A stretch of 64,000 nt of DNA from the NCBI GenBank assembly GCA_021740385.1, contig JAIOZY010000006.1:62001-126000 (forward strand). Direction: 5' to 3'. Position numbers and translations under genes: made by a program. This document shows positions 1,429 through 1,504 of the stretch, piece after piece. Source of the stretch: Prolixibacteraceae bacterium (GTDB taxonomy: Bacteria > Bacteroidota > Bacteroidia > Bacteroidales > Prolixibacteraceae). Every line of letters starts with the position of its first letter. Position 1 is the stretch's first letter. The notes below the pieces were generated by a model, which made no database searches, was not told where the DNA came from, and saw nothing but the letters and a program-made list of their open reading frames with translations.

Positions 1429-1504
1429 ATGAAACGATCCCGCCCTGGCGGGAGAAATTCCGTCCGCCAGCTGGCGGACCCTTAAAATCAAACAACTTAA
1501 TCTT
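1429..1504 (+). repeat. Palindromic leader element, copy 1
   Basis: The element begins with ATGAAACGATCCCGCC, has a first inverted repeat CCCGCC-CT-GGCGGG, then an 18-bp perfect palindrome GTCCGCCAGCTGGCGGAC, then an A/T-rich tail that ends exactly at the start codon of the esterase at 1505. It is nearly the same as the element at 56798. There is no T-run after the stems, so it does not look like a simple terminator; it may be a mobile repeat or a structured mRNA leader. Confidence 0.7.

Follow-up and report, generated by a model that had tools for sequence, protein, structure and literature searches.

ERIC, RUP, Correia and Rickettsia palindromic elements are short mobile units that lie in or near genes and carry useful signals; to our knowledge, none of them inserts at start codons and supplies a new one. 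Small palindromic elements with terminal inverted repeats and a TA duplication are DDE-type MITEs, and integron attC sites carry the boxes RYYYAAC ... GTTRRRY. In the IS200/IS605 family, the enzyme cleaves behind the target and behind the right end, and both of these pair with guide sequences located at the base of a hairpin.

Here we describe a family of units of ~70 to 130 bases, five of which lie in a stretch of 64,000 nucleotides (the window) on contig C75 of a draft Bacteroidota genome (G000, 4.89 Mb). They are best explained as small non-autonomous mobile elements inserting into sense-strand ATGAA(A), above all at gene starts, a reading to which we give a probability of about 0.78. Like the IS200/IS605 group (IS608, ISDra2 and non-autonomous derivatives), the element has a short fixed target at its 5′ flank and a matching 3′ end, a sense-strand subterminal hairpin, a putative internal guide complementary to both target and end, and no terminal inverted repeats. 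Insertion takes place 3′ of a fixed target of 4–5 bases that is kept once at the left flank, and subterminal hairpins are present as covarying consensus stems. It differs from that group in its small size, in one shared guide instead of two, in having no linked Y1 transposase, in targeting the start codon and in a 3′ end that is itself a new start codon. The element thus appears to work like a non-autonomous unit of the IS200/IS605 type, among which its placement would need its enzyme. Like the ERIC, RUP, Correia and Rickettsia elements it is short, mobile and settles at genes, whereas the DDE-type MITEs differ from it by their terminal inverted repeats (on inspection, the two ends of its consensus show no inverted-repeat relationship). 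The open-access literature consulted, including the sections seen of PMC6006769, PMC3733652, PMC11109978 and PMC2864571, holds no description of such an element.

Five copies in the window

A preliminary description of the window had listed five elements, each ending at the ATG of the following gene, and the sequence, the ORFs and a profile search all bear this out: every copy is followed by a long ORF, with whose ATG it ends (Table 1). A profile built from genome-wide copies, those of the window included, matched the window exactly five times, always on the + strand (E 3e-21 to 6e-7), with no further window match below E 0.1. A second profile, made from copies in other genomes and in the parts of G000 beyond the window, recovered copies 3 and 4 (E 4e-9 and 5e-9), and the remaining three reached only E 0.6 to 6, because GC palindromes replace their loops. 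The shared beginning had been described as ATGAAACGA or one base off; the diverged copy 2 starts with ATAAAACGA. By itself the 9-mer ATGAAACGA is not enriched (31 occurrences in the window with one mismatch vs. 24 expected), and the significance lies in the whole unit, not in the 9-mer alone. Copies 1 and 5 had been singled out as almost identical; they are indeed similar (92% over the 5′ 52 bases, blastn), but this is not special, as many copies elsewhere are equally close. A blastn search with copy 1 found ~17 near-full-length copies elsewhere in G000, at 83–92% identity.

Two other repeat structures were seen in the window, namely paralogous genes in tandem at 18433–23083, with DNA stretches 60–78% identical (repeats D1 and D2), and a direct repeat of 186 bases at 25687–25872 and 27687–27872, 88% identical and 2 kb apart (D3).

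Table 1. Element copies in the window and the ORFs that begin at their 3′ ends.
Feature	Position	Strand	Remarks
Element copy 1	1429..1510	+	5′ ATGAAACGA at 1429-1437; profile E 2e-20
Copy 1, inner parts	1438-1453, 1463-1478; 1505-1510		GC hairpins, then an A/T-rich stretch; 3′ ATGAAA (1505-1510) is the gene start
288-aa ORF behind copy 1	1505..2371	+	Opens with the ATG AAA that closes copy 1
Element copy 2, diverged	2453..2523	+	5′ ATAAAACGA; ends in ATGAAA at 2518; profile E 6e-7
377-aa ORF behind copy 2	2518..3651	+	
Element copy 3	3674..3746	+	5′ ATGAAACGA; hairpin 3683-3700; profiles E 4e-14 and 4e-9
Copy 3, stem	3707-3714, 3736-3743		CATACGAT pairs with ATCGTATG, the latter containing the start codon
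1300-aa ORF behind copy 3	3741..7643	+	
Element copy 4, longer loop	42225..42343	+	Ends in ATGAAA at 42338; profiles E 2e-9 and 5e-9
826-aa ORF behind copy 4	42338..44818	+	
Element copy 5	56798..56878	+	Two-palindrome subtype like copy 1; ATGAAA end at 56873; profile E 3e-21
452-aa ORF behind copy 5	56873..58231	+	

Insertion sites compared between relatives

Empty and filled sites are seen in two species of one genus, G021 and G051, with ~90% DNA identity. Counting exact copies only, 4 of the 11 copies of G021 lie at loci shared with the 21 copies of G051. When G021 was searched with two G051 stretches that contain four exact-pattern copies or tandem partners, the alignment ran through three sites (the fourth copy, L300 at 1780, had no aligned upstream flank in G021). 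At the first, G051 has gained 90 bases at the ATGAAA of an ORF: the empty site of G021 reads ...ATAATACAA-ATGAAA-AAACTAGC..., and the filled one ...ATAATACAA-ATGAAA-CGAGCATG...TTTTAATCAT-ATGAAA-AAACTAGC.... At the second, both genomes share an older element whose ATGAAA end precedes an ORF, and G051 carries a second 90-base unit within that ATGAAA. The third gain resembles these two, with some divergence beside the start. Overall, empty sites have the form flank-ATGAAA-flank and filled sites the form flank-ATGAAA-CGAGC...CNN-ATGAAA-flank, with a gained unit of ~90 bases whose 3′ ATGAA becomes the start codon of the gene. A new copy can also enter the ATGAAA of an older one, which yields tandem arrays. 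The difference between G021 and G051 could be a precise loss in the former instead of a gain in the latter. We consider it very likely that the element is mobile and that its target is ATGAA(A).

Surveys of two genes in relatives of G000 (30 loci fetched per gene) point the same way. Among orthologues with readable upstream DNA, the element precedes one of 29 purA genes and one of 28 ackA genes, G000 being the only carrier in both cases. In element-free relatives, the spacing from the upstream gene or hairpin to the start fits an empty site, although the purA comparison leans on G049 and G016, and G001 has an A/T-rich stretch before purA that is possibly an old remnant. The ackA genes of G051 (L263) and G021 (L264), which we counted as empty at the start codon, have a decayed copy ~50–120 bases upstream (E 0.0025 and 0.012), away from the start, which shows old copies eroding. 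In a further comparison, of the L015 locus with G001, matches ended short of the elements.

The suggestion in the preliminary description that the element inserts at a start codon and duplicates it is thus supported, both by these empty and filled orthologous sites and by the excess at start codons described below. That description had also proposed comparing orthologous spacers with and without the element, the absence of empty sites in relatives being an outcome that would count against insertion; empty sites do exist.

Target and preference for start codons

For a wider view, 210 copies were collected by profile (28 from G000, 124 from loci of named genomes and 58 from relatives). The 5′ word is ATGAAACGA in 196 of them, and the 3′ word is ATGAAA in 187, ATGAAT in 13, ATGAAG in three, ATGAAC in two and something else in five, i.e., variation starts at base six. 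This sixth base is A in 187 of the 205 copies ending in ATGAAN, compared to 132 of the 232 ATGAA sites that form start codons within 714 kb of G000 (p-value 8e-17). Since A exceeds the start-codon background at this position of the 3′ end, the target is most likely ATGAA, with a strong preference for A as the next base. The ATGAA on the left is identical to that on the right, and copies with a deviant 5′ end (TTG, AAG, ATT, GTG, ATA) keep an intact 3′ ATG. The two ATGAAA could represent a 6-base target duplication instead of a target and the element's own end, which these deviant copies oppose, although decay might also have produced them.

Behind the 3′ ATG of the 210 copies lies an ORF in 157 cases (50 codons or more, unless truncated where the locus ends), another element in 15 and neither in 38. 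The 714 kb of G000 contain 232 ATGAA sites at gene starts, 337 at non-coding non-starts and 2562 in coding DNA. Start codons therefore account for 157 of 195 non-tandem copies vs. 232 of 569 non-coding ATGAA sites (41% expected, p-value 8e-30), an excess whose size is approximate, with ORFs called by a simple rule and the background taken from G000 only. Within 1.04 Mb of G000, the pattern matched 54 times, two matches being dropped by eye as chance; in the other 52, an ORF of at least 73 codons begins exactly at the 3′ ATG in 42, another element follows in three and neither in seven, so that 42 of 49 non-tandem copies sit at an ORF start. A genome-wide search with distances to the next start had been proposed at the outset, with copies indifferent to start codons named as the refuting outcome; the bias is present, and that outcome was not seen. 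Because selection against insertion into coding DNA cannot explain why starts exceed other intergenic sites, the excess calls either for a preference of the process itself or for an advantage gained by insertion at starts.

Unit anatomy and predicted stems

To define the unit, 60 diverse copies were aligned (picked from 174 for low mutual identity, for which 86 passed). The resulting consensus consists of ATGAAACGAGC, a variable stem-loop, GCGAGTTCCAT, NNG, ~25–30 A/T-rich bases, CNN and ATGAAA, the invariance of the first and third blocks being partly imposed by the search pattern. Judged from this alignment, the ancestral unit was probably ATGAAACGAGC-(stem-loop)-GCGAGTTCCAT-NNG...CNN-ATGAAA.

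Unconstrained RNAalifold predicted two neighbouring stems, the first between the 5′ end and an internal strand (AAACGAGC with GCGAGTT), the second between the internal bases that come next and the 3′ end (CATNN with NNATG). For the second, the start-codon stem (CATNNG with CNNATG), the 60 copies show 63 cells changed on both sides, compared to a mean of 23.6 after shuffling (0 of 500 shuffles as high), and the covariation is gone when the helix is slid by 1–3 columns. The first stem extends into the variable part, also with covariation. Across pairs 2–4 of this extension, G.T is far more frequent than A.C (56 vs. 14), whereas pairs 1–4 of the start-codon stem are nearly balanced (25 vs. 17). 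Breaks in the start-codon stem are frequently G-A mismatches, like the tandem GA/GA in stem 1. Such mismatches can stack as sheared pairs on the sense strand; because of this, and because G.T exceeds A.C in the extension of stem 1, we read the structure as a sense-strand one. Folded as single-stranded DNA, several copies give weak structures (z over the copies, −5.0 to 0.0), and folding as RNA recovers the stems better (z −1.5 to −4.7, with both stems in most of 10 folded copies).

GC-rich palindromes, which are also present elsewhere in the genome, often replace the variable stem-loop in G000. They are local decorations, and the core of the element is its two ends. The preliminary description, which had considered mobile palindromic repeats, was therefore right in kind but not in what defines the element: the palindromes are late additions in this genus. 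One palindrome of G000, CCGCCAGCTGGCGG (e.g., C47:165931, C47:170638, C78:30583), is found as a unit of its own and, at either of two positions, inside element copies, and looks like an independent repeat that entered them. A copy at ~3135–3345 of L076 has ~170 extra hairpin-rich bases in its variable loop, one repeat being nested in another.

At the 5′ junction, ATGAAAC is an almost complete complement of the internal strand GTTCCAT, whose CAT pairs with the 3′ ATG, so that the two uses compete for CAT. Such pairing with both ends, resembling that of a splice guide, would also suit an insertion through RNA, in which the element RNA would join the AUGAAA of an mRNA via GUUCCAU and be copied back by a reverse transcriptase or by recombination. 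The better prediction of the structure as RNA than as DNA is consistent with this route, as is the fact that only sense-strand start codons are favoured, far above other non-coding ATGAA sites. However, no ribozyme-like family of Rfam matched, and the unit is smaller than any self-splicing RNA that we know of. Rfam 15 gave no match above gathering thresholds in the window and, for eight loci with exact copies, five matches at E ≤ 5, all below gathering and none over an exact copy. We thus regard insertion through RNA as unlikely.

Copies in the genome and beyond

Exact searches returned 12 matches in G000 for the two-palindrome type (ATGAAACGA followed by 1–12 bases and GGCGGG) and 21 for a second subtype, ATGAAACGAGCATG, with no match for either reversed control; one of the 21 (L082) resembles an ordinary gene start, so at least one is doubtful. 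The two-part pattern of ATGAAACGAGC, 10–40 bases and GCGAGTTCCAT was found in at least 116 stretches of named Bacteroidota and related genomes, and in 13 of 41 genomes near G000, again with a reversed control of 0. A chance origin of the family is ruled out by these reversed-pattern controls, all of which were 0, and judging from the matches the family reaches many Bacteroidales genomes. Exact copies occur on both strands inside single contigs. One copy, the single stretch matched in a viral contig collection, lies at the start codon of a phage gene on an uncultured phage contig with terminase- and portal-like genes (L370, 740–900). Collections of plasmid and phage records yielded no match, one element copy having been queried in each.

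Search for the enzyme that moves the element

As in REP/RAYT systems, the element is a small, multicopy, extragenic and hairpin-bearing non-autonomous unit, found here in Bacteroidota. It might then be a REP-type element moved by a RAYT (TnpA-REP, a Y1 HUH enzyme), probably of the Bacteroidota-specific subclass 2.6. Of the six Y1 matches in G000, one, L033, shows the motifs NHVH and YIHQNP that are tabulated for subclass 2.6 in the section consulted of PMC6006769, where atypical REPs and flanking structures are reported for this subclass in Bacteroidetes. However, the element has no flanking RAYT, is a larger unit with a defined empty site at ATGAAA, and ends in ATGAAACGAGC and CNNATGAA, without the 20–40 base palindrome with a GT[AG]G (or CGTC) foot that marks a REP. 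The element ends are absent from the fetched flanks of all six Y1 loci of G000, and none of 30 fetched loci of subclass 2.6-like RAYTs contains an element. A relative of L033 was matched in 21 of 61 genomes at E 1e-12; four genomes without one at this threshold (G018, G010, G005 and G009) carry 12, 10, 6 and 3 exact element copies, whereas G004, G007 and G014 have the relative and no exact copy. Among the Y1 genes of G000 and the subclass 2.6-like genes surveyed, RAYT as the mover is thus unsupported, being neither flanked by the element nor visibly associated with it, and a REP/RAYT origin seems rather improbable to us.

Two of the Y1 regions have features of their own. On the 5.8 kb contig G000:C105 (L033, L340), an element copy at ~3817 is accompanied by subclass 2.6-like RAYT genes, of which one is intact and several are broken. 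In L034 (G000:C48:45640-48810), a Y1 (IS200-like) match lies within a long frame resembling a DNA methylase or restriction enzyme, giving the impression of an in-frame insertion of a transposase-like domain.

A search for an autonomous or longer, gene-bearing copy found none among 179 distinct matches to the 5′ half. The rule for a 3′ stem partner failed in 34 of these, most of which still end at ATGAA with a weaker stem; some others are truncated where the locus ends, L191 seems to be broken, and the right part is longer in L159, L205 and L057. Two orphan 3′ halves (L190, L197) have no 5′ end near them and no notable inner gene.

Genes behind the elements

The genes that follow the copies are unrelated, and include purA, ackA, a DNA polymerase III delta-like gene, transporter-, lipoprotein- and response-regulator-like genes, and a phage gene. 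A leader peptide starting at the 5′ ATG (ATG AAA CGA, i.e., MKR...) was rejected: neither frame nor stop is kept, lengths modulo 3 are distributed 85/67/58, and 176 of 210 upstream frames hit a stop before the gene.

This diversity bears on the idea that the element is a shared mRNA leader, whose stems in the 5′ UTR would hide the start codon and control translation, and whose copies would have spread as useful. The covarying stem does contain the start codon, the elements lie in the sense direction of the gene, RNA folding gives both stems in most of the 10 copies, and G.U exceeds A.C in the extension of stem 1, all as expected of a leader. Yet, beyond the unrelated genes and the missing leader peptide, most orthologues are empty (28 of 29 for purA, 27 of 28 for ackA), the occupancy of sites differs between sister genomes, and upstream copies in tandem arrays retain their 3′ ATGAAA with no gene starting there. 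We thus hold a shared leader to be quite improbable, and its specific form in the preliminary description, leaders controlling PUL enzymes, fails on the unrelated genes and the mostly empty orthologues.

An integron-like cassette, with attC-type single-strand recombination by a tyrosine recombinase making the arrays, would fit the tandem copies with a common junction and the single-strand stem at that junction, but is very improbable given ends (ATGAAAC ... GTTCCAT) that, compared by eye, misfit the attC boxes and a unit with no inner cassette gene.

A proposed mechanism

Within our preferred reading of a non-autonomous mobile element, GTTCCAT would act as an anti-start-codon guide by base-pairing to the target as well as to the 3′ end of the element. 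A single-strand nuclease or recombinase supplied in trans would cut after ATGAA at both places and swap the strands, and the unit would be moved as a single strand by this unlinked enzyme. Such single-strand movement is suggested because the GTTCCAT pairing follows the guide logic of IS200/IS605. We consider a single-strand, guide-paired DNA mechanism plausible, at slightly less than even odds. With ATG AAA restored, settling at a gene start would cost little: the gene would keep its ATG AA(A) start, because the 3′ ATGAA belongs to the element, and its former leader would be displaced by ~70–130 bases. Since the start codon sits in a conserved stem, the element may still affect the regulation of the host gene as a side effect.

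It is tempting to speculate further that the element is a selfish nucleic acid addressed to the start codon itself, in which a GUUCCAU guide finds AUGAAA, inserts the unit and swaps in its own start, the target perhaps being met on mRNA or on the coding strand exposed by transcription. We rate this as somewhat unlikely; if true, the element would move in step with gene expression and find its way by base pairing, using a class of enzyme that has not so far been connected with units of this kind.

Implications

There is an outside chance that the element represents a categorically new system, should it be true that the guide pairs with start codons in RNA or in transcribed DNA, and such guide pairing would make it a small programmable insertion system aimed at start codons. 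An element that targets start codons and brings its own would be a neat answer to the problem of settling inside genes at low cost. It rewrites the 5′ leader and the start of many genes at once, it is a natural source of new leaders for the evolution of expression, and its recognition corrects the annotation of start codons and leaders in many Bacteroidales.
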